Of a stretch of DNA of 64,000 nt, positions 14,516 to 53,300 are shown in pieces (position 1 is the first letter of the stretch; every line of letters begins with the position of its first letter). The DNA lies in assembly GCA_013115135.1 (NCBI GenBank), contig JABANP010000095.1:72001-136000 (forward strand). The letters are read 5' to 3'. The notes under the pieces are model-generated. The model searched no databases and was not told where the DNA came from. It saw only the letters and a list, made by a program, of their open reading frames with translations. Both the position numbers and the translations under genes were made by a program. Source of the stretch: Perkinsus olseni (lineage: Eukaryota; Perkinsozoa; Perkinsida; Perkinsidae).

Positions 14516-15481
14516 CTAGCCCCATAACGCAAAACCATCGTTGAGTAGCATAGAATCACTGATAACGTCATTCCCATAGTGTCTCCCCGAGCCATTCACC
14601 CCCAAAGGCATATCATATACTCTGTCCTTCCAATGGCCCGTGTGGTTGGCGGAAGACACAAGCTGTCGTGCGAGGCTCTTAGCGCTCGCACTACCTGCGG
14701 ACTCGAAACGCGCAGGGAAGTCGTACCAGTCACTGAAGATATCAGCGACCATGTCGGAGTTTAAGCGACCCGTCCACTCCCCAGGGCTGTCAGCCTTCTC
14801 GCCAGGGCGGGTGTATACGTAGTGGACTCGATACTTCTCTGGATAGAGGGCCTTCAAACCATCAAGTTGGCGTCGGAATAAGACTTCCTCGGGCCCCTTG
14901 TTGAAGTATAGCAGACGTACCTCAGCGCCGTGGCTCAGGAGGGCCCTGATGGGGTCCACACAGGCAGTTATAGCACCACCAAAACAGAAGAAGCCGACTC
15001 TGGCGGCGGATGTATCCAAGCTGCGCAGGATGGCAGGGAGAGGAGGCAGAGGGCCATAGATGTGCATCAAGGAACCAGGCCAAACATCCTGAGCCATTTC
15101 CAGTGACACACCGCTGAGCACCTTGACAGCCAGCAAAGTTGCCTGCCCATCATCAGTAGCGACTGGTGAATAGTTTCGAGTTCGCTCTGAGGGTGCCTCG
15201 TACTTGATCCACTGGCCTGGATGAATATTGTCCTGGTAAGGGTAGTCTATCGTATACTGTATGGTAGAAGCAGTGACATTCCTCTTGTCCACCAGCTCAA
15301 CATCGTGGGCATGTAGTGCTTGTGTGACTGCAGCACCCAAGCCACCAATACAGACAACCGCTAGAGCCACCAAAACCAGGCAGCCGCAGCGCCAAGCGAG
15401 ACGCCGATAGGACCGTCTCTTCCTCGCACGACGTCTTTCGACGGCTGCATGCCCAAGAAGGAACTCTGGGTCTACTGGCAT
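14516..15481 (-). CDS. membrane-anchored ferredoxin-reductase-fold oxidoreductase
   Basis: Intronless, 321 residues. A basic cytoplasmic start (RRRARKRRSYRR) is followed by a transmembrane segment (LVLVALAVVCIGGLGAAV, about residues 35-52), giving type II topology. The rest follows cytochrome-b5-reductase-like proteins: GQWIKYEAP, the flavin motif RNYSPV (R-x-Y-S/T), GSLMHIYGPL, and the nucleotide-domain pattern VGFFCFGGAITACVDPIRALL, EVRLLYFNKGPEEVLFRRQL and VHYVYTRPGE. The NAD-binding G-G-T-G-I-T-P motif is changed to GGAITAC and the usual C-G-P-P-x-M near the C-terminus is absent, so nucleotide preference or activity may be altered. It is convergent with the aldolase, 147 nt away. Several N-x-S/T sites (NVT, NHT, NGS) fit a lumenal catalytic part. 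Confidence 0.65.
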   Translation of the reverse strand: MPVDPEFLLGHAAVERRRARKRRSYRRLAWRCGCLVLVALAVVCIGGLGAAVTQALHAHDVELVDKRNVTASTIQYTIDYPYQDNIHPGQWIKYEAPSERTRNYSPVATDDGQATLLAVKVLSGVSLEMAQDVWPGSLMHIYGPLPPLPAILRSLDTSAARVGFFCFGGAITACVDPIRALLSHGAEVRLLYFNKGPEEVLFRRQLDGLKALYPEKYRVHYVYTRPGEKADSPGEWTGRLNSDMVADIFSDWYDFPARFESAGSASAKSLARQLVSSANHTGHWKDRVYDMPLGVNGSGRHYGNDVISDSMLLNDGFALWG

Positions 15482-23493: not shown

Positions 23494-26400
23494 ATGGCTA
23501 GTGTAGATGATCTCCTGAAGAGCGTCGAGAAAACACAGAAAGATGTCCAGTCGGTGAAGGGCCAAGTTCAGAGTGTCGCGGGTAATGCACCTCAGAGGGC
23601 AACGAACCAGCTCTCGTCGCACAGCACTCACGTTGTGGACATCTCACCCAAGCCGGTAGTTCAGCCGCCTTTGCTCAGACAAATTAAAGGCCATAAAGGT
23701 GCAAGTGGATCAGCGTAAAGTCGCAGCAGGTGGCGCAGGAGGGACCGCGGCCATCAATGCCGTCTTCGTTCAAAAGGAACTCGATAGAGCCCGAGGGATC
23801 ATCTCCAAGTACTCATCGCCATTGATGACGGACTTCCTGACAGTCCACCAGGTTCATGGCGATGATACAGCCCCCAGCTGATGGGGAAGGGAGTGGCCCT
23901 CAGGACGAGGCAGTAGCTGCCGCACAGGCTACGATCGACATGCTGGCGAAGAGAAAGAACGCTACTGATGACCTTTCCAGGCCACTGTACGGCTCTCACA
24001 GGGCTCCACGACATGAGAGGCTCGCGGTTGGTCAGGTTCGAGAGACTAGGAGGCGATACGGCGCTAGAAGCGTGTATCGGTCTAGTTTACGCGAAGGCGC
24101 TGCAAGATCCGAGGACCCGGTGAGGGATTGTCAACAATGGAAGGTGTTCGAAGGTGCTGCTGCTGTAGGGCCTACTTTGAGAAGAACCAAAGGAAAATTG
24201 ACTCGATAAAGAAAAAGATGCACCAGTTCTTATCGGGTCAATTTGGTAAGGCCCGCCGTCGGCAAGGCTGAGTAGAGCTGCTCACTGGCGTCTGGCCGCA
24301 GGTGGAGCTTCCAAGTACGATCTGGACGACTTGAAAATGATGCACTATCAAATGAACATTACTGACTTTCAGTTCGACGTGGTAGGTTGAGAATCTGCGC
24401 CAATCAGCGTGAATACCTACTCAGATGTCGGAGCTTTTCCATCACACTTTCGAGGCCGTAGGGGCCCATCCAAATGCAGTAAAGGTAAGGTGCTGCTCCC
24501 AGCTGGGGAGAATACTCATTACGATAGGATGCCATGCGAGCTATTGGCCAAGTGCGTAAGGCCATCACCACAGGGTGCACTGTACGCATGGAGCTTGCGA
24601 GGAGGAGTATTGAGAAGGGGAAGGACGGCCTTTATAGAAGGTAATCGACACAAGGGTCATAAGTATGCAGTTGTATTTGATAAGGCTCGGAGAGGCTGAG
24701 GGCATCAAGACCTTCATGGATAGGGTCTATGAATTGGTAGTCAACGACCATAGGCTCAAGACCTACTTCGCGGACAAGGACGTTGAGAAGTGATAACCGC
24801 GCATCGCCTGTTGCTGGGAGTGCGTTACCTTTAGGGTTAAGAACTCTCAATTGGTATGGATAACAGAGGCTCTGGGTGGCCCGAAGACTTGGCAAGGTGA
24901 GCAGGCCGTGCTGAGTGGGCTACTGAATACTGCCACTGCATGATTGCCGACTGCATCAGGTAAAGACCTCAAGGAGGTTCATAGGGACCTGGGTGTTAAC
25001 GATTACCTTTTCGACTGCTTCATTATGAACTGCCAAAAAGCCCTTAATGGTCTTGGTGTGGAGGAAGATGTCATGGATGAGGTCGTGTACTGGGAACCAC
25101 TTGTACGCGTCCCTCAGTGGATTCCTCTGTGGAGTAGCACTACGAGACGTAACGGGAGACTGACTAGGTCCCGCTGAGAAATATTCGTCTTGGGTTGCTT
25201 GTACTGTGCAGTAACCGTCCAAGACAAGTAAGGTTGGGCTATTCCATGTCATTATCCCGCAGGTACTGGTCTCACTGGAGCCAGCTAGGGATGGAGTACT
25301 ATGCAGGACTAGTGGACTCAGCGCTACGTCCAAAAGTAGTCAGTGGAAAAACAGTGCTAGAAAGGCTAGGCGGGGAGATGAACTTGGAAGCTGTCATCGA
25401 GACGATGTAGTACAGGGATGAGATACTATGCCATGCAAGAGTGGTCGGAAGCCGGCGGCCTTGGACTCGTGCTTTCGTCGATCTTGGAAGGAGTCAATCA
25501 ATTCACAGGTACACAGGCTGCCTCCTTGATCCCAGAGTGAAGTACTTCTTCTCGAAAGATACCTCTAAAATGACTCACATCAAATCCAAAATGGTAAGTG
25601 CTGCTGTCGAGCTTCAAGCCAAGCTGACTGTCGGTGTCTAGGTACAGTTATTAACAGGGATGCTCGGCGGCCCTCAGCTGTATCCGGTGAACAACCTTAG
25701 ACCAGCTCATTACGGTCTAAACATTACCGACTACCAGTTCGATGCTGTCCTGGAGAATTTTCAAGTTGGACTGGATGCAGGTATCGTTCGGTGAGCACCG
25801 TTCTTCAGGTGGCTGCGAATATTATGGAAGTGGAGCCAGCAGTGATGAACGACATGGTGGAAGTAGTGAGGTTCACTAGGAGCCCTATCACCTGTGGTTG
25901 CACGGTGAGGCTCGAGATCGCGAGGAAGAAGACAGAAAGTCAAGGTGAGTAGCGAGATGCGACGGCGCCGGGGAGCGGACCTCTTCCGCGCTTCGCGTCC
26001 GTGAGGGTGGTGCGAGTAGGTGCAGCCGGTAGTTGTCATTACGGCGGTTCGAAGTCTTCGCTGCTGCTCGTGGGCTCAGTGTAGTACTAGCAGATAATGC
26101 GATATCATAATGGCCGAGAAATGAAATCAAGCCGTCTGTCCCGATGGGGCGTCATTTTGAAGCGCGAGCTAGAGTGATCCGCTTGGAAGGATGGCTCAGG
26201 GTCCCTTCACTGCGTCTTAGGCACAGAGGGCCTCATATCGATCCTCGGCGGGCAGGAAGGGGTTGTCAGTTGGGTCGCCAAGGTTTATGATAGAGTCCTC
26301 GTTGACGACAGGGTGAAGCATTTCTTCCAAGGCTCCAAGCTGGACGCTGTGATGGAGAGTCAAGGTGGGGAGGACACTGCCTGCTTCTTCGTCATATTAT

Positions 26401-29188
26401 GCATTGTCGATCGATTCATGGAGACGACCAGGTCGCTGTTGTACTCAGGGAAGTACTTCCAGCAGTTGTTCGGTGCCTCGGCTGGGTACAGAGGCCGCGA
26501 CCTACCCGAGATACACAGCACGATACAGATATCGGACTTCCACTTTGATTCATTTATGGAGTCCTGTCGTGAGGCATTCCAAGCCATGGGAGTTGACAGC
26601 GAGACCATCGATGACTGTAACATGGCATGTTGCTCGCTGACGGGTCTGATGTTCTACCTCTTAGGCACAGTGCTGATGGAGTCCCTCAGGCTACAGATAG
26701 TTAACAAGGAGCTGATGAACCACGATGTGAAGAGGGCACTGGAGATGGCCAACCAGAAGCCACTGTAGGCGAGGACAGAGGGGCGTATGTTCCTCGTGAC
26801 GATAGTGTCTTCAGTTACGACCGTTTGGGTGGAGAGAACAGTCTTGAAAAGCTCATAGACTTGGCTTACGAGAAGGCACTGCAAGACGACCGTTTGCGCA
26901 GCTTTTTCGAGAAGAACAAGGCGAAGGTTACGACGATCAAGAAGAAGATGACACAGTTCATCGGAGGCCTCATCGGCGGCCCCGTCACCTACGACGCAAA
27001 AGACTTACTGTAGGAGCTTATCGCTAGACCTGAGACCGGTAGTATTCGCTTCTGCTCAGACCGGCTCACTATGGCATGAATATTACCAATTTCCACTTCG
27101 ACGTGATGCTCACCATACTAGCCACCACTCTACTCAACGATATTGGCGTCGAGAAGGCCTTGGCGAGGGAGCTGATGAGTGCCTTGCAGCCGGTGAGGTC
27201 TGACGTCACCAAAGGCTTCACTGTGAGAGGGGAGGTTGCTAGGAAGAACGTTGCAGACGGTAGTAGCGACACAGTCATGGTGCATGATAGACTTGGCTCG
27301 AGTCAGGTGTAGATCATCTCTTCGGTCGGATGGGTGGTAAGGACGGCCTTCTGAAGATTATTGATAGCCTGTAAGCCATCGTCGTAACCTCATCCTCCGC
27401 TACCGCGACAGCTGTGCTCAATCTCTCCTGATATTCAAGAGTACCGCATTAGATAGGGTCTGAGGGTGGGCCACTCGGCGCCCGACGCTTTCATGCTGCG
27501 TGTTATGCCGGGAGGTGTTCGACGCCATTGGCTCAGGTACGAGATCCTCGCTGAGGATGCGAGGGTGAAGGAGTTCTTCGGTGGTGGTGTATTGGAGAGA
27601 ATAAGGGATGGACAGACGACAGTCCTCGTGGAGCTACTCGGCGGCCCGAAGGTCTACCAAGGTGCCGTAGCGTGAAGTCATTTAAAAATAGACTCTGTGG
27701 GAATCGAACCGGCGTGATGCTCAGGCCGAGACCTTGTCGCTGTCCACAAGACTCTGGGCGTTACAGACTATCATTTCGATGCCTTCCTAGTGGACTTTCA
27801 TAAAGCACTCAGCGGAGCAGGGTTAGACGGGGACCTCATCGATGCGGTCATCATCACTTTGGAGCCCCTACGAGACACCGTGCTGGGGAGAGATCCTGGT
27901 AGGCGTCTTGTCGTATTCCTCAAGATGCCTATGGTACGATCACAAGCTGATAGATAACAGCTCGATACCAACTTTTAAGGAACTTCCCCTCTCCTCACGC
28001 TAGTACATTAGAAAGCGCTCCTCGGTAGGTGAATCAGCCGTAGCGCAACAGATGAAGCAGAAGAACGGCAAGCCTGTTATAGAACGATTGGGAGGGGATA
28101 TGAACCTCGAGACAATAGTGGAAGGGATGTAGCAACTCTCCTCGTCACGTCGACTTCCGTATCGATACCCTCGGCAACTATGGGAGATCCTCGTGTTTCT
28201 GCTGGCAGGTACGAGAAGGCTCAAGTGGACGACAGGCTGAAATTCTTCCTGGATAAGGGAAAGCAAAAAGTCCGGCAAATAAAGCAGAAGATGTATACCA
28301 CTCCTTCACTTCCTCTCCGCGTCCTCCTCAGCGTCCATCTATCAGGTATCAGCTCATGTGCGGCGCCCTGGGAGGGCCGACCCTGTACGACTTGAATAAG
28401 CTCAAGCCCGCACACTACAATATGAATATCACCGACTATCACTTCGATGCGGTGAGGGCGTCGTGGACTCCTGCCGCACCAATGCTGGGAGCGTGCGTAG
28501 ATTCTGGCCTGTTTCGCTGACACGTGCCAAGAGATGGACGTAGATGCGGATACAGTGGACGACGCCTGTCTGGTGAGTTCAGCCTCCCTTGGTAGCGTTG
28601 GACGGCCGTCTTCTCCCAGGTCCTCAATAGTGTCCGGAGCGATATCACCGCAGGCTGCACGGTTCGAATGGAGCTGGCCAGGAGACGGAGTCAAGTCGAT
28701 GGTAGGTACCCGGTCCGTTGTAGTTCTGTAGGGTTGCGGTCTTCAGGCGACGATCAGCTGTTTGCTCGCCTCGGAGGTATGGAGGGGGTGGAAGACGTTG
28801 TGACGCGCCTTTACGAGTGCGTGGAGCGGGACAGGAGGATAAACAACTTCTTCACCGGAGCGAAGCTACAGGCTATCAAGCGTACGCAGAGTGACTTCAT
28901 AATAAAGACCCTTGGCGGGGACCGACTGATTACAACGGCCGATCACTTGGAGGAGATCCATGCCGTCTTGGCCATAACCGACTTCCACTTGGACGTCTTC
29001 TTTCCAGCTCATGGCGAGGGCCCTCAGGGACTGCGGGCACGACGGTGACTCTGTCGATGAGGTCCGGTCGCTGTCTCTGCGCACCAGCGACACTGAGTTG
29101 TGCTCATCAGGTCCTCGTGCGGCTTGAAGGCCTCCGAAAACACATCCTAGCAGCACATTATGAGAAGAAAGGCTATAGTGTGAAGTGA
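23494..29188 (+). CDS. eight-domain truncated haemoglobin, copy A
   Basis: A gene of about thirty short exons with GT-AG introns of roughly 45-60 nt and a few longer ones. A heptad-like N-terminal segment (starting MASVDDLLKSVEKTQKDVQ) leads into eight tandem group-1-type truncated globin domains. Each has the A-helix R-L-G-G or similar start, Tyr at B10, Phe at CD1, the G-G-P turn and the proximal His F8: for example LKMMHYQMNITDFQFDV (domain 1), LKEVHRDLGVNDYLFDCF (2), LPEIHSTIQISDFHFDSF (4) and LVAVHKTLGVTDYHFDAF (6). Truncated globins bind haem and handle O2, NO or peroxide. No signal peptide is seen, so a cytosolic location is inferred. The frame breaks at 25332-25335 (extra A) and about 29001-29005 (extra base in TTTCC); the last domain also has a compensated pair of indels at 28916-28950. 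It lies 136 nt from the start of copy B. Confidence 0.85.
24035..29188 (+). repeat. eight globin-domain array in copy A
   Basis: Approximate genomic starts of domains 1-8: 24035, 24685, 25354, 26221, 26815, 27307, 28028, 28747. Domains 1, 3, 5 and 7 share an H-Y-x-x-N-I-T proximal-His motif, a Lys-rich E helix ending in Met (for example KKKM), and a C-terminal V-R-x-E-x-A-R-K/R. Domains 2, 4, 6 and 8 share a Gln in the E helix, a G-R-D-L or similar turn before the His, and mostly an L-E-P-x-R-like last helix. Introns often split the B10 Tyr codon region or the G-G turn at the same place in different domains. Confidence 0.85.
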
Positions 29189-29324
29189 CCTTTGGAATAC
29201 ATGCAACCGTACCATCGACGGCCTTCGCCTCTTCATCATGTCCGGTGTTCTTCGACACATCTGGTCATTCATCGTCGTGTTGGTTAATTCATTACCTGGG
29301 GCCCGTAGTGGAGCCTTAGTCGAG

Positions 29325-32300
29325 ATGGCGGACATCGTTGGTCTCATCACCAACGTTGAACGAGCGCATACTGACCTGCAGCAGCTGCGGACCAAGATGG
29401 CCAGTGTTACTGGTGAGTAGTACACCTCCTGTGGTGACTGTATGGCATGGGCGTTAGGCAAGCTGGAGGCTATCAAGCAGCAAGTCGGGCCGGCGGCAGG
29501 TGGTGGTGAAGACGGTACGACAACCATCAATGCATACTACGTGCAGAGTGAGCTGAGGAAGGCACGGGAGACGCTCGACAGGTTAGCGGGAGTATCAGCG
29601 GCCTGCTCATGCATGGGAAGCATACGGTTCATGCTGATTCGCCGATCGGGCTGATAGACTGAGATTGGTGTAACATAGTACCATGAAGTAGGTCTCTGGT
29701 CTCGTGTCGTAGTGGAGCTGGTTTGGATGAAGGCTCCACGTTCAGGGAAGCTCATCTTTTGATGTAGGTTCATGTCGATAGTACGAGAGCGAGCCGAGAA
29801 GCAAGACGCCACCAGCGCAGATGATGAGCTCCTCGAGGCCGAGGCAACCATGGAGGCACTGAGGAAGAAGTTGAAGGGCAACGACGACAAATCTAGGCCA
29901 TTGTGGGCTCCTCGGGTCAACCTAGGATTCGTCATATTCTCTCTTATCGTGCTCAGGATCGAGCGTCTAGGCGGTGACACAGCGATAGAGACATGTGTGA
30001 AGCTGGCCTACGCTCAAGCCGTGAAGGACAGTCGAACGAAGTGAGCCTCAAACGACCGGGACTAGGGAGAGGGAAGGTCGTCGCCTTTTAGGGCGTATTT
30101 TGACAAGACCAAGAGGAAGATGGACTCGACTAAGAAGAAGATGCATCAGTACCTCGCGGGGGCGTTCGGTGAGCAAGCTGCTCGACCGTCGTGGATTGCA
30201 AGTTGGGGGTTGATTCAGGCGGCGCCTCAACATACGATAACGATGGGCTGAAAGCAATTCATTATCAGCTCAACATCACCGACTTCCACTTCGACGCGGT
30301 AGCCTTCGTACCGTGGCTGCTGCTGCTCCTGCACACTCCCTTTTTAGTTCGCGGAGATGTTCCACCGAACATTCATCGCTACTGGAGCTCATGCCAATGC
30401 TGTCAGAGTAAGGCTGGACGTCCAGCTGCAGGGCCCCTCACCGCCGGGCTCCTCAGGATGCGATGAGGGTCTTAGCGGCTACTCGGAAGGACATTACCAC
30501 GGGATGCACTGTCCGGATGGAGCTTGCCAGGAGGAGCACTGAGAAGGGCCTTGATGCTCTCTACAAGCGGTAAGTTCATGGCTGCTGCTGCTCGCTCCAG
30601 CTACAGCTAGACCTGGTTCGCTCCCAAGCATTCAATGCGGTAGGAAATCTGCCGGTCTCTCGCTGCCATGTGGTGCCTGTCTGCGCTGCCTTTGTCGTCT
30701 CCCAAACCTAGGGTGTGTGCAGGCTCGGGGAAGCTGATGGAATCCGCGACTTTGTGGACCGCGTCTACGACCTACTCATCGGTGACAAGAGGATGGTATC
30801 TTATTTTGAGGGCAAGAATCTGGATGGGTGAGTCTCGGACGCGCAGCAGTCCCTGCCGTTCACTCTCCTATGCTTAACGCATCATGTTGACTGGGGCATG
30901 TCTGTCATCTTCGGGATCGGCATTGGTGTTTCAGGATAAAGAAGGCCCAGCTGGTCTACATAACTGCGCTTCTGGGCGGCCCTAAGGCGTGGCAGGGTAG
31001 TAGGCGTCAACCGTCCGCCCTTCCCCTTCATGACTGTGGAGGACGAGCTTGCTCTGATCAGGCAGAGACCTCGCTGAGATCCACAGTGGTCTAGGGATCG
31101 ATGACTATGGCTTCGATTGCTTCACCATGAACTGCGAAAAGGCCCTAAATGCCATGGGAGTTGACGAAGATACTATCGACGAGGTCCTTCCTACACCCAC
31201 CTCCTACGCTCATACCACAACACCCCCACCTCCTCTTTAGATAGTAGTCACCATGGAGCCTCTGCGTGATGAGGTCCTGAACAGGAGGCGTGGCTTGAGG
31301 GCCGAGACCAAGATGGTAGATGGGCAGTCAATTCTCGAGAGGATAGGCGGGGAGATGAACCTGGAGGCTGTTGTTGAGACCATGTATCTCTTATCCTCAT
31401 GCTCCCCCATCCCCATGATAGCCTCTGACATAGGTTCTCCGGCTGCGTTGTCGACCCACGCGTGAAGTACTTCTTCACAAAAGACCCCTCCAAGTTGAGC
31501 GGCATACAGATCAAATTCGTGAGGCCGTCTCCGCTGTGGAGTCAGGCGTGTGAATCTTTCTGCCGGATTAGACTCAACTCCTCACCGGTCTCCTCGGTGG
31601 TCCCAAGACCTACGACTACGCCCGACTGAGGCCGGCTCACTACAACCTCAACATCACCGATTACCAATTCGATGCGGTTGTCGAGAATCTCCAAGTGAGG
31701 CTATTTTCACTCGCACAGCCGTTCAAGGAGCTTCCGACATCTGTCAGGCAGTATGCGGTATGATGGACTTGTCTGACGCTGTGGTAGCCGATATCTCTGA
31801 GGTCATATCCACCCTGCGATCCTACATTACTTGTGGTTGTACTGTGCGCTACGAGATCGCTAGGAAGAAGACTGAGGCTTCCGGTGAGCAGCTTCTAAGG
31901 ATAGAGGCGGCTGCCTCTATGCGGTATCAATTGGCCAGGTACGGAGGGGCTCTTCAACCAGCTAGGGCGGGATGAGGGCATCACTAAGTTCATGGATGAT
32001 CTATACGCTCTGGTCACACGAGATGATAGGATCAAGCACTTCTTTCCAAGGAGCCAAGCTGGATGCTGTCAAGGAAAGTCAATGTAGTACCCCAGGAGCA
32101 TCGGACGATCAGCGGGAGGAGTGGTATGCAGCTGCCTCCTCTTCCTGTGAAGGTATCTTCTTCAAGGAGCTCTTCGGTTCCACAACGCACTACACTGGTC
32201 GTGATCTGCCGTCAATCCATTCGCTCATCCAAATATCCGACTTCCATTTCGACTCCTTCCTAGACTGTGCAAAGGTAGCTTTGGACAAGATGGGCATGGA

Positions 32301-34704
32301 CCCGGATACAATCGACGATTGTGAGTATCATCATCACCATGCATTGCTCGGCCCTCCACGGGTCCCTTTCCTCTTCGCAGGCGTTGTCTTGATGGAGTCG
32401 GTCCGGAGGAAGCGTTGTTAACAAAGAGCTCATGCAGCATGACGTCAAGAAGGCTATGGAGTTAGCGAACAAGAAACCTTTGTAAACAGCGGTAGCAACC
32501 TTGCCTTGTCCATCGCAAGGCAGATACGACCGTCTTGGCGGCGAGTACACTATTACTAAGCTGATGGACTCAGCATACGATAAGGCGCTAGTAGATGACA
32601 GGCTGCGCTTCTTTTTCGAGAAGAACAAAGCGAAGGTAGCCAGTGTTAAGAAGAAGATGGCCCAATTCGTGTCCGCACTGACGGGAGGACCGACGGGATA
32701 CGATGCTAGCGATCTCAAGTGGGTCTGCTCTACTGCAAACTCCCCATACCGATATTTCTCAGACCTGCTCACTATGCTATGAACATATCCAACTTCCACT
32801 TTGACACCATGCTCGGCCTCCTGGCCATCACCCTGCTGGAGGACCTCAAAGTTGACAAGGCCCTTGCACGAGAGTTCATGGCCTTGCTGCAGCCTGTCAG
32901 GGCTGATATCACTACTGGTTACACAGTCCGCTCTGAGATGGCCAGGAAGAGCGTCGAAAAAGGTAGTAATTGCTGCATCCATCCTTTCGGGTCGGTGTAG
33001 ACAGAGTGTGCGTTGAGGGGATCCTGTCCAATCGAAGGACCGCATTATCGACGTAGGTCTTGACCACCTGTACGAGCGGATGGGTGGAAAAGAGGGCATC
33101 CTCAAGCTACTTGACAGTTTGTACGAATCATCCACGTTTGGCAGCATCTTTTCAAGCCATGATGACAGGTATCAATTAGTGGCGGGCGATGCCCGGATAA
33201 AGGACTTCTTCGGTGATGGCACCTTAGAGAAGATCCGAGAGGGCCAGACGCTCGTCTTAGTGGAGCTGCTCGGAGGTCCTAAGGTCTACAATGGTAAGAA
33301 GAGCGTTGCGAGAGGTGTGATGGAGAGAATTCTCACAGGTCGGGACCTGGCAGAGATTCATAAAAACCTCGACGTCACGGACTACCATTTCGACTGCTTC
33401 TGCAGCGACTTTCAGAAGGCTATGATGGGCCTCGGCATGGACGAGAATCTCATCGATGAGGTCCTCATCACGATCGAACCCCTACGATTAACGGTCCTTA
33501 GGACGAGATGGCAGTAAGTCAGTCTCGGAACGGTCCAAGGTGGCGATGGAATCATTTCAGACGAGGCCGCGCTCGCCGCACAGATGAAGGTGAAGGACGG
33601 CAAATCGGTCATCGAGCGGCTAGGTGGTGACATGAACTTGGAAGCCATCACTGAGTCTATGTAGGGCCGCAGGAGAGGGAATTGCAGGGCACTGGATGAG
33701 TAGGTTCGATAAGGCGATGACTGATGATAGGATACGCTTCTTCCTGGACAAAGGGAAGGCTAAGATCCGCGCGCTCAAACAGAAGATGTAGTGGCCTGTG
33801 TCATGCTTCATCGTCGAAGGTCCCATTGGAAGGTACCAACATCTGGCGGGGGCGTTTGGAGGTCCGAAGCACTACGACCCAGCAGGGATCAAGCCGGCTC
33901 ACTATAACATGAACATCACAGATTATCATGTTGATGCAGTAGGGCGAGGATACAGTCGCTATATACACCTATCAGCCCTATACTCACAGATGCTGGATTG
34001 CTTCACGGAGAGCTGTCAAGAGATAGACATCGATCCTGATACCATCGATGATGCTGTCATGGTACAGCCCTGGTCACCCTAACCAGACCGTTTCGTACGG
34101 TCGCCCGTCAGGTGATGAACAGCGTTAGGAGCGACATTACAACTGGCTTCGCACTCCGGCGGGAGTTAGCCCAAAAACGAGATGGTCAGGATGGTGAGTT
34201 GCAGCTGCCGGTCCAACGCGAACTGGTGATGGTCTTGAGCAGGTGAGGACCAGCTCTTCTCGAGACTGGGTGGTCTCGAAGGGGTCGACGAATTCGTTAC
34301 TCGACTTTACGAATGCGTTGAACGAGATAGGAGGCTCAACCAGTTCTTCACCGGCGCCAAGTTGAAAGCAATCAAGCAAGCACAAACGGACTTCATCATA
34401 AAAACCTTGGTTGGGCCGTCCGACTACAGCGGACGGTCACTCGAAGAGATCCATGCCGTGCTGGCCATCACTGACTACCACATCGACTGTTTCTTACAAC
34501 TGGTGGCCCGGGCATTGCGAGACTGCGGCCATGATCAGGAGACCGTGGATGAGGTGAGTTCGAGTATTGTTTTTCTGATTATTATATAATTAAACTATCG
34601 AGACCAATGCATGTGAGTTGTGGCAGGTAATAGTAAAACTCGGGAATCTCCGAGCTAGCATACTGAAGAGTTACTACGCAAAGATGGGCTATACAGCTAA
34701 GTGA
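29325..34704 (+). CDS. eight-domain truncated haemoglobin, copy B
   Basis: Tandem paralogue of copy A with the same domain order and matching intron positions. The start at 29325 is chosen because the N-terminal segment (MADIVGLITNVERAHTDLQ) aligns with the copy A start. Eight domains follow, with proximal-His motifs such as LKAIHYQLNITDFHFDA (1), LAEIHSGLGIDDYGFDCF (2), LRPAHYNLNITDYQFDAV (3), LAEIHKNLDVTDYHFDCF (6) and LEEIHAVLAITDYHIDCF (8). It ends SYYAKMGYTAK, parallel to HYEKKGYSVK in copy A. Frame breaks needing one base skipped occur at 32043-32047, about 32413 and about 33503; in each case copy A is in frame at the same place, supporting indels rather than loss of function. Haem binding in all domains is inferred from the conserved His. 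Confidence 0.85.
29957..34704 (+). repeat. eight globin-domain array in copy B
   Basis: Approximate genomic starts of domains 1-8: 29957, 30723, 31327, 31939, 32524, 33057, 33562, 34243. Each domain is most like the domain of the same number in copy A (for example domain 5 ends in VEKG-type linkers and domain 8 shares LYECVERDRR in both). This shows that the eight-domain gene existed before the gene was duplicated. Confidence 0.85.
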
Positions 34705-44819: not shown

Positions 44820-47800
44820 ATGTCTGATTACGTCGCTGAGTATATACAGCGAACCTGGAGGAAGGTCAGACGACGGGAGCGGGCTGATTCGGCACTTGCT
44901 CCTTACCGACATGCTGAAGTTGGTAATGGAAAAGCAGCGGGCACATGTCTATTCTTTTGGCCCTACTCTGTTGGTCTCAGGTATACCCAACCATGAGTAC
45001 CATGACAATCGGGTATCGTCTCGTCGGTATAATTGGATATCCTTTCTCCCGCTGTCTTTACTATTTCAATTCCGTAAATTCTCTAATCTGTTCTTCCTCT
45101 CGAGCGCTGTGGTGATGCTCATCCCCAACGTGTCCTCTCTAAGCCCAGTGTCCGCCCTATTCCCTCTGGCATTCGTATTGGTCGTCTCGGAAATACGAGA
45201 ATTCGTTGAGGAATACCAATCCTATAATCGAGATAAGGAGACCAACTCGACTAAGACCCACAAGATCGCCGAGGATGGTACGGTGGTAGCCGTCCCCTGG
45301 TCGGACCTCCGAGTTGGGGATGTTGTGCTGGTCATGGATCAAGAGCCAATCCCTGCGGATTTGGTATTATTGCTCTCTTCACACGCTGAGAACGCCAAGA
45401 CTGGGTCGGTGGCGTACATGGAAACGAGCAACCTGGATGGGGAGACTAACTTGAAGACGAGAGAGGCTCCGAAGTTGGTTGGGAAGATGGTGATAGCAGG
45501 CTCGGAGTTCACCAGAAAACGGTCAAAGACATCAGGTAGAAACGGGCGACTTGTTCTTTACAAGCTCTAAGCCTGCTAGGTTGTTGTGCAGTTACAACCG
45601 AACCTGACTCGAACACCGCTGGGACTCAGCAAGATGGAGCTGGGGAGAGAATGGTACTAAAGAATAATTCCCTCCCTGACCTCTTTTGCAGCCGCCATGA
45701 TGCTCTTGACAGGCCATCAAGCGGTTCGCTACTGGTTACAACGCCGAGGACACCCTGGGGCGGTTGGTATCATCAATGACGATGGACTTCGAGGCACCTC
45801 ATCCGGATATGTACAAGTAAGACGTTGTTGTCATGGGTGAGAAGGCTTGGGATTCAACCCACTTCATGGGTCCCAGGTTCAAGGGTACTGTTGCACCACT
45901 CAGTAATACAGAAGATGAGGGATTTGCCGAAGGCTTGTCGATCAACAACATGTATGAGTCGTGTATGTTGCGGTATGGCCAGCACGTAGTGTTGTCGTGC
46001 CAGGCTCCTTCGTGGTTGTAAACTGCGTAATACCCCCTGGGCGGTTGGCGTTGTGACCTATGCTGGATATGACAGCAAGGCTGAGATGAATAGCAGAGGT
46101 AGTTGGTGACTTGATCTCGGGGTTGGTATTTTCATCTTGTCATCAGCCGCTGGCCTGCATCCATCCAAGCACTCAACGGTGGAGAATCAGCAGAACGCCT
46201 ATGTTACATGGCTGGTCATCCTCTTGGTCATTCTCTGTGCTATCGTCACCATCGTCTTCAGCACGGAGCCTTCACCGGAAGATGAAGACTACCCCTGGTA
46301 GTACATCGTACCAGGCTGTGTGGAGAGTATCTTGAGGTTGACTCAGGTACTTGGTGGGTCTGAGTTATCAGAACCCTATCATCAACTTTCTTGCGTTCTT
46401 CGTTTTGTTGAATACTTTGATACCGATGTCACTGTGGGTTACGCTGGAGATCCTGAAACTAGCTCAATCCTTCCTCATCGAGTGGGACAATCAGTTCTAC
46501 GATCAAGAACGGTGAGTCGCAGAGGCCCCGTGGTTCGATTCCCGGCAGCGGCATTTGTTCTCAGAGATCTCCACGCTCGATGTAATGCTAAAAACATGCA
46601 TGAAGAGTTGGGTATGGTAACGCACGTGTTCTCCGATAAGACCGGTACGCTCACCTGCAACAAGATGGAATTTAAGGGCGCAGCGGTCGGAGGCAAAACG
46701 TACTCTCTCGATTTCAACCCGCCGGCGCCTGACGCTGTCCCCGAGGGGAAGAAGTGCAATGCCGTATTCTCTGGCGTTCTCCCCACTGACCAGCGTCTCA
46801 TCGGTCTTATGCAACAAGCCTTGCAGAAGGAGGGAGTGGATTCCCAGATCGGACAATTCCTCATGTGTTTGGCCTTGAATCACTCTTGTGAGCATGTTGC
46901 TGGCGGGCGAATAAATCCCCAGCATATGGCGGAAGAACCGGCGAAGATCCTCAGCGGCTGCATACAACTTTTCAACAGGAAAAAGAGGCGACAGCGCGTG
47001 GGTGATGATGAAGATTCCGGTCGGCTGGGTCGGGACACGCTCGGCGGTGGAATGGAGCAGCAGGAAGAGCCGGAAAATTATCAGGGTACATCTCCTGATG
47101 AGAGTGCCCTGGTGGGAGCCGCTGCTGATTTTGGTCTGCGCTTTGTTGACCGAACGCCGGAGGTTGAAATAGTGAAACTGCCGGATGGCACTGAGAAGAC
47201 TTGGAGACTTCTACACGTGGTGGAGTTCACTAGCGAGCGGAGGATGATGACAGTCGTTGTTACTGACAATGACACAGCTGGTAAGAACGATGATATCAGC
47301 GTTCTGTGAGTTGTTGGAGTTTTGGTATTAGATACTGATGATAAGCCTGTGTACATTTATACTAAAGGAGCTGACAGCTCTGTTTTACCCAAGTGTGTGA
47401 ACAATACAGCAGAGGAGAGCAAGGTCAGGGCGCATACTAAAAGGATGGTCGGAAGGTTCGCTGAGACAGGATTCCGTAAGTAGCTAAGTCAAAGGGAGTA
47501 GGGTGGTCACCCTTTCGGTGGGAATTAGGAATCCTTGGTGTACGCAAGCAATGTTCGTACCTCTCGGCATTTGACTGCTTGCTTTGGTGATGTCAAGCTC
47601 AGTTGGTATCAGGTACTCTATGCGTTGCATATCGTATGATACCCCTATCAGCATGGAAGGCCATCCAGAGTGAGATCGATGCGGCCCAGGCTAAGGTGGC
47701 TGAGAGGGAGCATCTCGTCAGCGAGATCGATGCCAAGGAAGTGGAGGTTGACTTCACCTTGCTAGGGTGTACAGCAGTGGAGGACAAACTTCAAGTAGGT

Positions 47801-50044
47801 CTTCGTCTATTCTACCACTGCCGCCTTCTCGTTGCTGCTGCGATCGTTGTCATCAGGACGGGGTTCCGGAGACTATCGCCTCTCTGCGGAATGCCAATAT
47901 AACTGTGTGTATGATCACTGGTGACAAGAGAGAGACTGCAATCAACATTGCTAGGAGTTGTCGGCTTGTCACCAGTAAACAGAATGTGTAAGTCGGTTGA
48001 TGGGGGGGGTTGAAGCAAGTGATTAGGTGAAGTTTAGGTACACTATGATGAGCCAAAACAACATGTTCGGTGGTGGTAACTTCGTGCCAATCAGGAGCTT
48101 GCAGCAGCTTCTAGGTGAGACGGAGCGATGCTTTCTTTGATATCTTGTACTGCACAGTAGCTGGTCGTAGAAAAGGGATTCTCCCCTCACCCTGCCGGAT
48201 CTCTTTGGGGTAGTGCACTGAGACTTTCTAGCAATTCTAGGGGCCTCGGACTGAGTCCAGCATCCAAGAGCCGCTGCTCTAGTGGGATATGCTGTTGCCA
48301 CGCCTTCCACTGTTCTCTTGATGTATCGTCATGCGTTTTGCCCTCAGAGGCCAAAGAGCCGGCATTGGGAGTGGACACACCACTGGAGCCGGGCTCATTA
48401 GACGACCAGCAGGACGTCGATGATGATACAGACATGCTGCTAGGGCCCAACCCCCTAGCAATATGGGAGCTTACGGGGGAGGGTCAGGACATAGAAGACA
48501 AGATTCGCAACGAAAAACAGGTGGACAAAGCGGGGTCGTGTTTCCGGGGCTTCCTGTCCTGCTTTTGCTTTTGAACGGCTTCCGAGGTTGAGGTGGTTGC
48601 TGGATCCTTTTTCTCGGCCGTGCTCCAACTTTGCAGATGGCCATTTTCCCTTTTTTTCATCAGGCCAAGAGGCTCGTGTCGCGAACGGCTTCGAACGCGT
48701 CCCGACTCCCTGCGTCCCCGATGCGGGTTGCGTCAGCGCGCAGCGGATATAGCACTCCGGATGGGAACCCAACAGCAACTACTGAGAAATTCTCGCTAGT
48801 TATTGATGGTGCAAGTCTAGCCACTATTCTTGTGAACCCGACTAGCAGGAAGAAGCTGTTGGAAGTGCTCACCTACGGTCAATGCGAATCCGCGGTGTTC
48901 TGCCGAGTGAATCCCAAGCAGAAGGGAGAGATAGTTCATTTGGTTAAGGACAGTCTCGATAAGCGAGGCAGAGTGTTGGCGATTGGTGATGGTGCTAATG
49001 ATATCAATATGATACATCAAGCCCACGTGGGTGTTGGTATATTCGGTCAGGAGGGGTATCAGGCGGCGGGCACAGCAGATTACGCTATCAGTAGATTCGG
49101 TGACCTCTATCGTCTTATGTTCTTCCATGGTCGGATAAACTACGAGCGAAATACACATTTTATCAACTTCTTCATCTACAAGAATTTTGTATACACTCTG
49201 TGCCAGTTCTGGTTCGGAATTGTTTCCTTCTGGACCGGTCAGACCGTCTTTGAGAGTTGGTACGTCCTTACCTATAATTCTGTTTTCTGTCTGGCACCCC
49301 TCTTCATCGCGGCCCTCTTCGATAAGGATATTGATCCAGACTTGGATGCCCCAGCGCCCAAGGGGTGTGGTCGAATGCCTCATCCACCAGGCGTTACGGT
49401 CGGGGTGTGGTATGAGCAGATCGTACCTAAGCTTTATCATAGAACCAACCAGAACTACAACTTTGGCTCGAACATTCTCCTCAAGTGGATAGTGATCGGG
49501 ACCATTCAGTCCTTGGTTGCCTTCTACGCCGTATGGGGTTATTGGGGTTACACGGGCACACCTCTGATGAGTAACGGTCAGGTAGCCTCCTACTGGATGA
49601 TGTCAATTCTCCTCTACTCATTCATAATGGTGATGGTAACGACCCTCATATTCTACTATACTAGTAGAATGGACGAAGCTCTTCATCTTCTGTAATACTA
49701 TCCTGAACATAGTCATTTACGTTGCCTTCGTGTACATCTATGATCTATGGTTCGGCAGTGATGTCTATCGCCAAGCTGTGGCTACCACTGGTAACATCAC
49801 CTTCTGGCTCATCCTCCTTCTCATCACCTCTGCCTGTGTACTGCCAATAGTGGGTGCTGCTAAGCTTCGGCAGTTGACTGATCATGCGTACTTCTCTGAC
49901 CAGCTGCAGGAGAGAAGGGCTTCTTATAAACGGAAGACCCGCAGGGAGGACAGGAATCGGCGACGACGAGGAGGGCATCGTCACTCGACGGTGGGTGAGC
50001 CCGACGATGACCATTACGTGAACAGAGTAGATGCTGTAGTTTGA
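44820..50044 (+). CDS. P4-ATPase (phospholipid flippase) 1
   Basis: Moves aminophospholipids to the cytosolic leaflet, usually with a CDC50 partner. I start at 44820 ([20 protein letters not shown]) because this exon splices in phase into [19 protein letters not shown], the conserved pre-TM1 block. Then come TM1-2, the actuator with [10 protein letters not shown] (P4-type DGET), [20 protein letters not shown]3-4, the phosphorylation motif [66 protein letters not shown], and the hinge [18 protein letters not shown], followed by the remaining membrane helices and a basic tail. Exons between 48120 and 48600 are poorly resolved. A single extra base near 49674 breaks the last membrane segment frame. 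It is a tandem paralogue of the next gene. Confidence 0.85.
46512..46564 (+). repeat. intron with tRNA 3'-half-like sequence (flippase 1)
   Basis: This 53-nt intron contains GGTTCGATTCC at 46532-46542, a perfect tRNA T-loop/box B consensus, followed by CGGCAGCGGCA, which has the layout of a T-stem and 3' acceptor strand. The 5' half of a tRNA is not present, so it is not a gene. The same block occupies the matching intron of flippase 2. Confidence 0.6.
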
Positions 50045-50377
50045 GTAGTAGTAGTATTACGCTAGTTTGATCGTCCTCCCATCCTGTCATTGAGGGCCCT
50101 AGACGTTTAACTTTTTGTTGTTATGCTCTCGTCGTCTGTCTTCGTGGTCACTACCACCACCACAATGTGGAGGAGCTTCTCTGAACACTTGGTAATCTAG
50201 TAGCCGGTACTCCCTCCCCACATTGGTGATCGTATATATAGTTGATGCCTTTGGAGCAGGCCATGGCTCTTATAGGTGATTATGATGATAATGACGATGA
50301 TTGCGATATTGTTGGTAAATCTCTCAGTCTGTAGTAGTTCATCCTGGAGTATTTGTTCCTACTTGTCGGTCATCTGA
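50045..50377. other. intergenic between the two flippases
   Basis: About 0.33 kb, AT-richer, with runs of GTAGTAGTA and GATGATAATGA-type microsatellite. No coding or RNA feature was recognised. Confidence 0.5.
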
Positions 50378-53300
50378 ATGCAGCTTAGTATTGCGTTCAT
50401 TCTGACGCTCGCCGTACTGTCTGTTTCAGTAGTAGTCATTCTGCCTAGACCCCCTCAATGCCTTCATGGCGAGCCTCCATATCCAAGGTTATGGCGATTC
50501 ATCCCGCAACTTCGCCATCTTGTTGTTGGTAATACTACTAGTACGGACTAAGCATCCCGCCTTATGTCGTTGCTCCAGGTGAAAGCTCCCACCTGTACAG
50601 CAGTAATAGCGTATCAACACGGGAGTACACCTGGGCCACCTTCCTCCCGTTATCGATAATCTTCCAATTCCGGCGTCTGTCCAACTGCTACTTCCTCCTG
50701 GCCGCCGTCCTCGCCAATCTGCCCGACGTCGGTTCCCTCAATCCCCTTCGCTTCGGTCGCTCCGTTGATATTCGTGCTCATCGTCTCGGTCGGCCGAGAG
50801 TTCATCGAGGAATATCAGGCCTACTTGCGTGACAGGGAGATCAATCGTACCCTTGCCCTTGTCGTGCATCGAGATGGGCATCTAGTAAGGAGGCAATGGT
50901 CTGATATCCACCCTGGTGATATCGTCATTGTCAAAGAGCGTGAACATTTCCCTGCGGATTTGGTATTATTGCTCTCTTCGCACGCTGAGAACGCCAAGAC
51001 TGGGTCGGTGGCGTACATGGAAACGAGCAACCTGGACGGGGAGACTAACTTGAAGACGAGAGAGGCTCCTAAGTTGGTTGGAACGGTGCTAGCGACCAAC
51101 CCCTCGGCAGAGGGACGCAGGCCGGGCAGCGTCCAACTAGGTAGACTCGTTGCTTCTCTTGTCTTGTGAAGGTGTATCGCGCAGATATCGGTGGGCCTAG
51201 CAGCGAGGACGGACAGGCATCGCCGAAGGTTGTCGTTGAGGAGATCGCGGATACGCCTGTAGGCACTCTTCCGCTCGCTTGCTTCGGAGAATGTCTTCTC
51301 AGCTGATTGGAGATTCTACCAGTCTTATGAATGCGGACATTGTGAAGTTATCAGCGCTGGTCGGTAGCTTCTTCATCGACTGTGAAGCGCCCAGCACCGA
51401 CATGATGAAGTAAGCCGCCGGCACTGGAGCATTCACCACAGTTCCTCACCTGTGCAGATTCCAGGGTACTATTGCGACGGTATCCGATCACACTAGGTCG
51501 TCGGACAACACGGAGGCGGTATCTATTGACAATATGTGAGTTCTCAGCATCTCTGTTTCGGTAGGAGTATTCTATTCAGATTGCTGCGGGGATGCAGTCT
51601 ACGTAACACGCCCTGGGCTGCCGGGGTAGTTGTGTATGCAGGGAGTGAGACGAAGGCGATAATGAACAGTCGCGGTACTAGTAGCAGTGGTAGTAATAGC
51701 GGGTTTGAGGTGATGCTTGTCAGCTCACTCGATGGGACCACGCAAGCAGAGTACAGTGGACAAGGCCATGAACAAGTACGTGTTGGTATTGTTCATACTC
51801 CAAGCCGTACTCTGCGGTCTTGCTACTATATTTACCTCCACTTACCCACAGGCAGGAGAGGAAGACGGAGATACAGATCCACCTTGGTAATACCCTGCTG
51901 CCACCTCCCCGGGGGAGATAGTGAAATCTCGTATCTTACCGTGAGTCGTTGATTGACTGATGGAAACTTCGTAATGATATTCCCCTCAGTTCGTAATGCT
52001 GTAGTAAGTGTCTATGACCTTGTGTGTGGCAGGTATTTAGAAGGCTTGTCTTATCAATCGGAAGTGGTGACCTATATATCCTACTTCCTCCTGCTCAACA
52101 CTCTCATACCAGTCTCACTCTGGGTGAGTGTTGATGTCATCAAGTTCGCGCAATCCTATCTTATTGAGTGGGACCTACAGTTACACGATGAAAAACGGTA
52201 GTGCGGGAGAATTCTGTTCGTGAGGCCCCTGGTTCGATTCCCGGCAGCGGCATTTCTCTCAGGAATCTCCACGCTCGGTGTAATGCTAAGAACATGCATG
52301 AAGAGTTGGGTATGGTAACGCACGTGTTCTCCGATAAGACCGGTACGCTCACTTGCAACAAGATGGAATTTAAGGGCGCAGCGGTCGGAGGCAAAACGTA
52401 CTCTGAAGAGCTCCTAGAGGATAATTCCACGTTCTTGAGCACGGTCCGTGTGAGACGACGCACTCACTTCACCGACGTTCTTCCACCTTCTGCTGAGCTG
52501 GTCGGATGTTTCCAAAACGCTCTAGCCCAACACGACCCCAACTTGGAGCAGTTCCTACTTGGGCTAGCTATCAACCACTCCTGCCAAAGGGTGAGGGCTA
52601 AGCGTAGTGCGGTCGAGGATATGGACACTCCCAGAGGGGAGAAGACGGGCTGCTGCAACCCTTGCCTCTATCTGGGTCGCAAGAAGCTGGGCAGCTTCCG
52701 CTCTGCTACGACAATTGAGAAAATGCAAGAGAGCAAGACTGGGTTAGATTGCGAAGAGGGCCCCATATTGTACCAGGGGACTTCTCCCGACGAAAGTGCA
52801 CTAGTGGGCGCCGCCGCTGACTTTGGTTTCCAATTTATCGACCGGACGCCGTTATCAATCGAGCTCGATCTGCCGAGTGGTGCGACGAAGGAGTTCAAAG
52901 TGCTGCATGTGGTGGAGTTCACCAGTGAGAGGAGAATGATGAGCACCGTAGTCACGGACACTGGCCCAGGTACGCTCATGTCGGCAACACGCCAATGGTT
53001 ACCTGTCCGTACTTCAGATATCCCTGACAAAATTGTTTCCGTGTTTACGAAGGGTGCAGACAGCTCGGTGGTTGCCAGGTGTGTAGTGAACGCTGACGCT
53101 GTTCTGGACCGGACACTGGAGCACACAGAACAGATGGTCAAAAGCTTCGCTGAGAAGGGCTATCGTAGGCATACTCCCATCTGCTGTCTAGGAGCCTGGA
53201 TGGTCGTTGTTGCAGGAACGCTGTGTGTAGCCCATCGTGAGCTGCGGTTTAGTGAGTGGGAGGTCATCGCCAAGGAGCTGCACGAGGCGCAGGTTGGCGA

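Follow-up and report, generated by a model that had tools for sequence, protein, structure and literature searches.

Two adjacent Perkinsus olseni genes, each predicted to encode eight group-1 truncated-haemoglobin domains

What might a unicellular organism do with a protein that carries eight globin domains in one chain? The question is raised by a window of 64,000 nucleotides from Perkinsus olseni (contig JABANP010000095.1, positions 72,001 to 136,000), in which two neighbouring genes, here called octaglobin genes 1 and 2, each appear to encode such a protein. The product would be a haem protein of very large size, all in one chain, whose eight domains alternate between two pocket chemistries; this design is kept in a parasite of molluscs as well as in a relative that lives free. 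This opens two matters to experiment: a unicell's need for so many globin sites per chain, and cooperation between neighbouring haems of unlike chemistry.

The evidence for eight domains comes from several kinds of search. A splice-aware profile search found eight group-1 truncated-haemoglobin (trHb) domains in each gene (Table 1). The original prediction had proposed a search with hidden Markov models as a check; here, Pfam PF01152 picks out eight stretches in the profile-search model of each gene, with scores of 334 and 346 bits, where the cut-off is 21. Another profile was made from 56 domains of seven proteins whose place in the tree is outside the Perkinsus sequences. It likewise finds eight domains per gene, and its path scores are 1310 and 1324. 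Pfam, profile and PDB sequence matches agree, and the predicted pair of group-1 octaglobin genes, each for one very large haem protein, is borne out by them. The gene models and the single-ORF transcripts of relatives suggest that more than one 2/2 globin domain would lie in each polypeptide.

The Pfam Protoglobin family matches the gene 1 model as a whole protein (53.6 bits against a cut-off of 25), with no single stretch passing. Neither gene model has a Pfam match (E 0.001) to PF00042 or to the FAD/NAD reductase domain that marks a flavohaemoglobin, and an exon-by-exon search of the genome for PF00042 returned 0 matches.

Could the array be a product of chance, or of low-complexity repeats? 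With the 56-domain profile, the reverse strand scores 0 at both genes, and none of 20 dinucleotide shuffles exceeds a score of 5. These path scores rule out both explanations. The raw scores of single domains are less clear, as one domain in 5 of the 20 shuffles reached 112-134 before intron costs, and the weakest real domain, gene 1 D8, has 143. A tandem repeat finder listed nothing across the gene region. A cluster of separate short genes can also be set aside, since exons span domain borders (24528-24640, for example, runs over D1/D2), introns do not mark those borders, and three transcript relatives are each one ORF.

Table 1. Features of the octaglobin gene pair, in window positions
Feature	Position	Strand	Description	Basis
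Octaglobin gene 1	23494..29188	+	31 exons, 1173 aa, about 131 kDa	model
Gene 1 N-terminal extension	23494..23986	+	118 aa; exons 23494-23581, 23679-23808, 23852-23986	
Gene 1 D1	24037..24578	+	odd type, with Lys at E10, Met at E11 and His at F8	splice-aware profile search
Gene 1 D2	24633..25307	+	even type: E11 Gln, F8 His	splice-aware profile search
Frame discontinuity, gene 1 D2/D3 linker	25312..25336	+	bridged by a 25-nt gap	model
Gene 1 D3	25357..25901	+	odd type	splice-aware profile search
Gene 1 D4	26235..26705	+	even type	splice-aware profile search
Gene 1 D5	26816..27219	+	odd type	splice-aware profile search
Gene 1 D6	27321..27891	+	even type	splice-aware profile search
Gene 1 D7	28079..28658	+	odd type	splice-aware profile search
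Gene 1 D8	28761..29158	+	even type; frame broken inside domain	splice-aware profile search
Spacer, gene 1 stop to gene 2 start	29189..29324	+	136 nt	
Octaglobin gene 2	29325..34704	+	31 exons, 1149 aa, about 129 kDa	model
Gene 2 N-terminal extension	29325..29902	+	exons 29325-29412, 29458-29581, 29768-29902	
Gene 2 D1	29958..30507	+	odd type	splice-aware profile search
Gene 2 D2	30562..31285	+	even type	splice-aware profile search
Gene 2 D3	31334..31840	+	odd by position, with Lys at E10, though B10 and E11 are both Phe	
Gene 2 D4	31953..32400	+	even by position; frame broken	
Gene 2 D5	32525..32922	+	odd type	splice-aware profile search
Gene 2 D6	33071..33493	+	even type	splice-aware profile search
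Gene 2 D7	33611..34150	+	odd type, Phe at B10	PDB sequence matches: group-1 trHbs
Gene 2 D8	34257..34674	+	even type	PDB sequence matches: group-1 trHbs

The outer limits first proposed for the pair, 23494 and 34704, coincide with the start codon and the last base of the stop codon in the gene models. The arrangement had been called back-to-back, wrongly; the genes stand head to tail on one strand. Each model must span one gap that is no believable intron, of 25 nt in gene 1 (where the next shortest gap is 43 nt) and of 28 nt in gene 2. In this assembly, gene 1 D8 changes frame twice with no intron to account for it, once within 28919-28948 and again near 29003. The frame of gene 2 D4 is discontinuous near 32045 and 32401, and its distal residues are unreadable in frame. 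Relatives, and certain other loci in this genome, have an unbroken eight-domain frame; the window genes, as assembled, do not.

These breaks might be real lesions in decaying copies, with other loci holding the functional genes. Three other loci (C717, C179 and C801), which parse without short gaps, fit this reading. It is nevertheless unlikely: a different P. olseni assembly, with its own locus-tag series, supplies the model P0003, which at the protein level is in frame at the places where gene 1 D8 and gene 2 D4 are broken, and both window genes group with P. chesapeaki relatives on short branches. Short gaps also occur in loci C201 and C878, as fits general assembly error. A second alternative makes one protein of 16 domains by reading gene 1 into gene 2. 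The shortness of the spacer invites this, as do the public models P0001 (P. chesapeaki) and P0002 and P0003 (P. olseni), which have 10-11 domains and join both genes. However, P0001 and P0003 do not join the genes in quite the same way, gene 1 ends in its own stop codon, and all three full-length transcript ORFs (P0006, P0011 and P0021, of 1154-1159 aa) are octamers; a 16-domain product is highly improbable. Two octamers remain the preferred reading.

The residues of the haem pocket divide the domains into two types. Counts were made over 21 octaglobins (168 domains, 84 of them even). The haem-binding His at F8 is present in 168 of the 168, and in 16 of the 16 domains of the window. Odd and even domains alternate along the chain, the odd having mostly Lys/Arg at E10 and Met at E11, the even mostly a small residue at E10 and Gln at E11 (29 of the 84 are without this Gln). 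Tyr occupies B10 in 127 of the 168 domains, with another residue in the remaining 41; within the window, Tyr B10 and Phe CD1 are each found in 14 of 16. The HbN-type pair, Tyr B10 with Gln E11, is in all four even domains of gene 1 and three of four in gene 2, whose D4 is unreadable in frame; it is in none of the four odd domains of either gene. Nearly every domain has a hydrophobic residue at E7.

How old is this design? The FOZ60 assembly of P. olseni, a 61 Mb genome, has eight octaglobin loci with about 64 domains, and relatives occur in other Perkinsus, in Oxyrrhis marina and among marine sequences, the last of which branch outside Perkinsus in the tree. In the tree, each of the eight domain positions has a group of its own, although support for some groups is weak. 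From this arrangement, the octamer most likely had a single ancient origin. Recent expansion of the array is ruled out by the eight groups, together with the 20-43% identity among gene 2 domains. In three divergent relatives outside the 21 (P0033, P0035 and P0040), D5-D7 are degenerate, implying that some relatives do not need eight working sites. In public annotation, the tandem genes are fused into a single protein, and the products are labelled hypothetical. As to a viral origin, P0014 was compared once with viral contigs and had no relative among them. A query of one odd domain, in a search limited by a length filter and by its word-based method, gave one match, a fragment of 215 aa from a contig of 1.2 kb, and no stand-alone odd-type globin.

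A predicted structure of P0006, the homologue from Oxyrrhis marina (1158 aa; mean pLDDT 83, pTM 0.67), bears on the fold. In this model, the even domains would adopt the 2/2 fold, with group 1 closest by VIA-align; the odd domains are absent among the top structural matches. The region matching the gene 1 N-terminal extension is modelled as helical, with low confidence.

What, then, might an octaglobin do? We think it somewhat probable that it serves as a high-capacity buffer of O2 and NO and as an NO dioxygenase, with eight haems in two classes of site. Each gene would give one chain of about 130 kDa, in which eight group-1 2/2 globin domains follow the N-terminal extension as four odd-even pairs, every domain loaded with haem through F8 His; we infer that the chain is soluble and located inside the cell. 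The even domains, with Tyr B10 and Gln E11, would have a polar pocket like that of classical group-1 truncated haemoglobins, and are predicted to hold O2 tightly and to convert NO to nitrate. The odd domains, with Tyr B10, hydrophobic E7, Met E11 and Lys/Arg E10, would bind O2 more weakly, or might take their sixth ligand from Lys E10, and would form a second, exchangeable class.

Several observations weigh against this proposal. The hydrophobic E7 leaves the even pockets one polar residue short. The even domains without Gln E11 and the domains without Tyr B10 count against it as well, as do the lack of an electron-donor domain within the chain, the frame breaks of the window genes and the degenerate D5-D7 of divergent relatives. 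The absence of odd domains among the top structural matches points the same way.

The original prediction had offered O2 storage, NO dioxygenation or defence against peroxide, in a parasite exposed to the host oxidative burst. The first two are plausible for the even domains, as judged from pocket residues; the burst finds no support as the reason for the design, as the same eight-domain protein is present in Oxyrrhis marina, which is free-living, and in marine sequences outside Perkinsus. A design common to a free-living relative suggests that octaglobins probably serve ordinary oxygen or nitric-oxide chemistry, and are no invention of a parasite.

Within such chemistry, the chain might be a plain O2 store, in which NO chemistry is incidental and the odd/even difference merely tunes affinity. 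Some invertebrates have multidomain 3/3 haemoglobins with an analogous role. Eight sites per chain, eight loci in one genome and the presence of octaglobin in Oxyrrhis marina all speak for such a store. It is unlikely, though, because even domains mostly keep B10 and E11 residues tied to very slow release of O2, which suits storage poorly, and because O2 stored in so small a cell would presumably last briefly. About equally unlikely is a multihaem relay, in which the odd (Met E11, Lys/Arg E10) sites would hand electrons or ligand to the even (Gln E11) sites, making a single-chain NO dioxygenase that re-reduces itself; on this reading, the number eight and the position-specific sequences would have been kept since before the split of Perkinsus and Oxyrrhis. 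A haem reservoir, in which the chain would chiefly bind and buffer haem and not gases, is highly improbable. The many haem sites, the invariant F8 His and the eight loci in a parasite would fit, but haem storage alone needs no conservation of distal residues by domain type. The buffer and NO dioxygenase described above is the function we prefer.

Octaglobins of Perkinsus or Oxyrrhis are not described among the papers listed by the literature searches, which covered few subscription papers and, in one case, 20 of 2,311 matches. Other systems offer comparisons. The single-domain group-1 trHbs (M. tuberculosis HbN and those of Tetrahymena, Paramecium and C. eugametos) share F8 His and Tyr B10 with octaglobins, and Gln E11 with their even domains; both domain types match them in sequence, and the even domains of the modelled relative would share their fold. 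Octaglobins differ in that eight domains are fused and the pockets come in two types, the odd domains having Met E11, Lys/Arg E10 and two extra residues between CD1 and E7. The EukProt transcript protein P0031 (1882 aa, 12 domains detected) is likewise a large single-chain group-1 array, but the 3 of its 12 domains placed in the tree fall with single-domain globins, outside the octaglobins. Animal multidomain haemoglobins also have many globin domains per chain, in the different, myoglobin-like 3/3 fold. Hade et al. reportedly reviewed multidomain truncated haemoglobins in 2017; to judge from the title, those proteins resemble octaglobins in their tandem truncated globin units. Chlamydomonas reinhardtii THB5 is described as four consecutive 2/2 globin domains (PMC7082302), and by that description it resembles an octaglobin in having several group-1 truncated-haemoglobin domains per chain, and differs in having four where the octaglobin has eight. 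Tandem truncated globins are already known, and the paired octaglobins are a further variation on them.

Two adjacent genes, each with eight truncated-haemoglobin domains, were the core of the original prediction, and a splice-aware profile search, run with our own script, delivers them. These octaglobins are indeed adjacent; they are, however, not back to back but head to tail, the stop of gene 1 and the start of gene 2 being separated by 136 nt. Guided models give 31 exons in gene 1 and 31 in gene 2, of which 22 of 31 match in length and order. The median intron length is 53 nt, over 190 introns in domain-only parses of ten sequences. A Pfam search of the spliced models had been proposed as a check; here, PF01152 occupies eight stretches in each gene (domain-only parses). 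For gene 1, the model further matches Protoglobin at the level of the whole protein, with no stretch of its own, and shows two weak matches under their cut-offs.

To guard against circularity, another profile was made from 56 domains of seven proteins branching outside those of Perkinsus, the domain borders being set using a model built from the P. olseni genome's own domains. This profile again finds eight domains per gene, with path scores of 1310 (gene 1) and 1324 (gene 2); the reverse strand scores 0, and none of 20 shuffles exceeds 5. In 5 of the 20 shuffles one domain could be assembled, its raw score, with intron costs not yet deducted, being 112-134; scores of the 16 genuine domains run from 143 to 239. 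Elsewhere in the genome, the model on contig C801 agrees with the P. olseni protein P0020 (FOZ60_015921) at 1013 of 1013 residues. As P0020 is one of the 11 rows in the guiding profile, this agreement tests the modelling script in a partly circular way.

Octaglobin loci in the P. olseni genome, and coding features of the window
Feature	Location	Strand	Remarks
Gene 1	23494-29188	+	eight globin domains
Gene 2	29325-34704	+	eight globin domains
ORF, ~8 kb upstream of globin pair	14519-15481	-	FAD-binding reductase domain, PF00970, 23.8 bits
Kinase with EF hands, filamin repeats, P-type ATPase pieces	4534-5424, 6085-7395, 46320-55158	+	neighbouring coding pieces; ATPase pieces match a phospholipid-translocating ATPase C-terminus
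Octaglobin locus	C717		eight domains parsed
Octaglobin locus	C201		eight domains parsed
Octaglobin locus	C878		eight domains parsed
Octaglobin locus	C1 (L016)		eight domains parsed
Octaglobin locus	C179 (L017)	reverse	eight domains parsed, with D4 and D5 separated by an intron of 2.9 kb
Octaglobin locus	C801		examined stretch begins inside D1; eight domains present in P0020
Partial copy	C456 (L015), contig end		D6-D8, very like the C1 octaglobin by eye

The window sits on contig C945 within a 61.5 Mb genome that holds eight octaglobin loci, the pair and six others. The partial copy is perhaps an uncollapsed haplotype. In the C179 gene, which is compact elsewhere, model exons run to 3480 and resume at 6425. 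Single-domain globins lie on C113 and C457.

Neither window gene reads through cleanly. Comparison with homologues places intron-less frame changes in D8 of gene 1, within 28919-28948 and near 29003, and in D4 of gene 2 the frame differs between neighbouring pieces near 32045. Two gaps in the models, of 25 nt (25312-25336, gene 1) and 28 nt (32401-32428, gene 2), mark further breaks; every other gap in the two genes is longer, the next shortest being 43 and 42 nt. The D6/D7 linker of gene 2 may hold another near 33494, where the exon is 155 nt long and its gene 1 counterpart 174 nt. These breaks might be lesions specific to the strain, or residual errors of assembly. P0003, a protein model from another P. 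olseni locus-tag series and known from the protein alone, is in frame across the D8 and D4 places. Short gaps recur on C201, with two of 25 and 31 nt, and on C878, with one of 35 nt; C717, C179 and C801 are free of them. Assembly error is the likelier reading, and a strain-specific lesion the less likely.

The haem pockets alternate along the chain. The residue table covers 21 octaglobins, namely 15 clean octamers out of 31 homologues and six models from the P. olseni genome; with P0020 added to the six models, that genome supplies seven of the 21, and near-copies occur among several of the rest. Proteins with other domain counts, joined tandem models, partial proteins and P0022 (last domain incomplete) were left out, and the divergent P0033, P0035 and P0040 stand outside the 21. 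HbN and Tetrahymena trHb served as alignment references for the helix positions, with helix names taken in part from PMC7082302. The proximal F8 residue is His in all 168 domains, Tyr occupies B10 in 127 of 168, and E7 is hydrophobic in nearly all. At E11, 58 of 84 odd domains carry Met and none carries Gln, while 55 of 84 even domains have Gln there. Lys or Arg fills E10 in 79 of 84 odd domains, against 2 of 84 even ones. A subset of 14 proteins, hand-picked to cut down near-copies, keeps the pattern (E11 Met 36/56 odd, Gln 35/56 even, F8 His 112/112).

The F8 His predicts that each domain binds haem. For clade N group-1 proteins, passages of PMC4720485 tie Gln at E7/E11 to high computed O2 affinity, and hydrophobic residues there to low; according to PMC7082302, Lys E10 coordinates the haem as its sixth ligand in three Chlamydomonas proteins, THB1, THB2 and THB4. 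By these analogies, even domains would carry out tight O2/NO chemistry, and odd domains would be weaker or Lys-coordinated sites. The product of the ORF upstream of the pair is a possible electron donor. It matches nitrate reductase and cytochrome b5 reductase in the PDB, and by eye has a possible N-terminal membrane segment.

Protein searches found at least 31 homologues with gene 2 as query (7997 candidates scored) and at least 46 with the family alignment (8000 scored). Among the matches listed, sources are P. chesapeaki, P. olseni, P. marinus, Oxyrrhis marina (P0029), and metagenome or transcriptome proteins. P0006 (MMETSP0469) and P0029 are 90% identical in the alignment, and 81% across 53% of the query by local BLASTP. 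With P0011 and P0021, P0006 is a transcript ORF of 1154-1159 aa with eight domains. Oxyrrhis is free-living. Its octaglobin argues against the host-defence role raised in the original prediction as the origin of the design.

P0033, P0035 and P0040 form a divergent second type, in which D1-D4 and D8 are recognisable and D5-D7 degenerate, some of the latter lacking F8 His at the corresponding alignment position. For P0014 and P0040 alike, the longest contig listed has 31,603 bp, so a regular octaglobin-type gene and one degenerate in D5-D7 may likewise sit together on a single contig of an uncultured relative. Twelve group-1 globin domains were detected in P0031, a EukProt transcript protein of 1882 aa. 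The three of its 12 domains that were tested branch outside the octaglobins, so large arrays of truncated globins may have more than one origin.

How the octamer grew was approached with a tree to which eight octaglobins contribute 64 domains, rooted against five outgroup domains, over 117 columns only. Each of D1-D8 forms one group (8 changes, the minimum possible), with weak support for D2 (72), D5 (43) and D7 (53). The odd and even sets split (SH-aLRT 98 and 87), and D2 joins D6 (96). Growth by steps, from pair to four to eight, would fit this grouping and the short strands in both the D2/D3 and D6/D7 linkers of a predicted structure model; of this, the tree backs the D2-D6 grouping only. 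A second tree covers 32 proteins, whole or partial; one P. chesapeaki row in it spans just 32% of columns, and the positions of C717, C201 and P0020 are unsure owing to long branches. There, gene 1 and gene 2 each group with a P. chesapeaki relative of their own (supports 84-100). Thus, the tandem pair is older than the split of the two species.

Proteins with several truncated-haemoglobin domains are reportedly the subject of Hade et al. 2017, judged by its title. Passages of PMC7082302 describe several 2/2Hb domains on one chain as a known kind of protein, and THB5 as having four. Thus, the tandem truncated-globin kind is already known. Among the open-access papers listed, no description was found of the fixed octamer, the odd/even alternation, the eight loci or the tandem pair. 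THB5 has four domains per chain, whereas the P. olseni octaglobins have eight.
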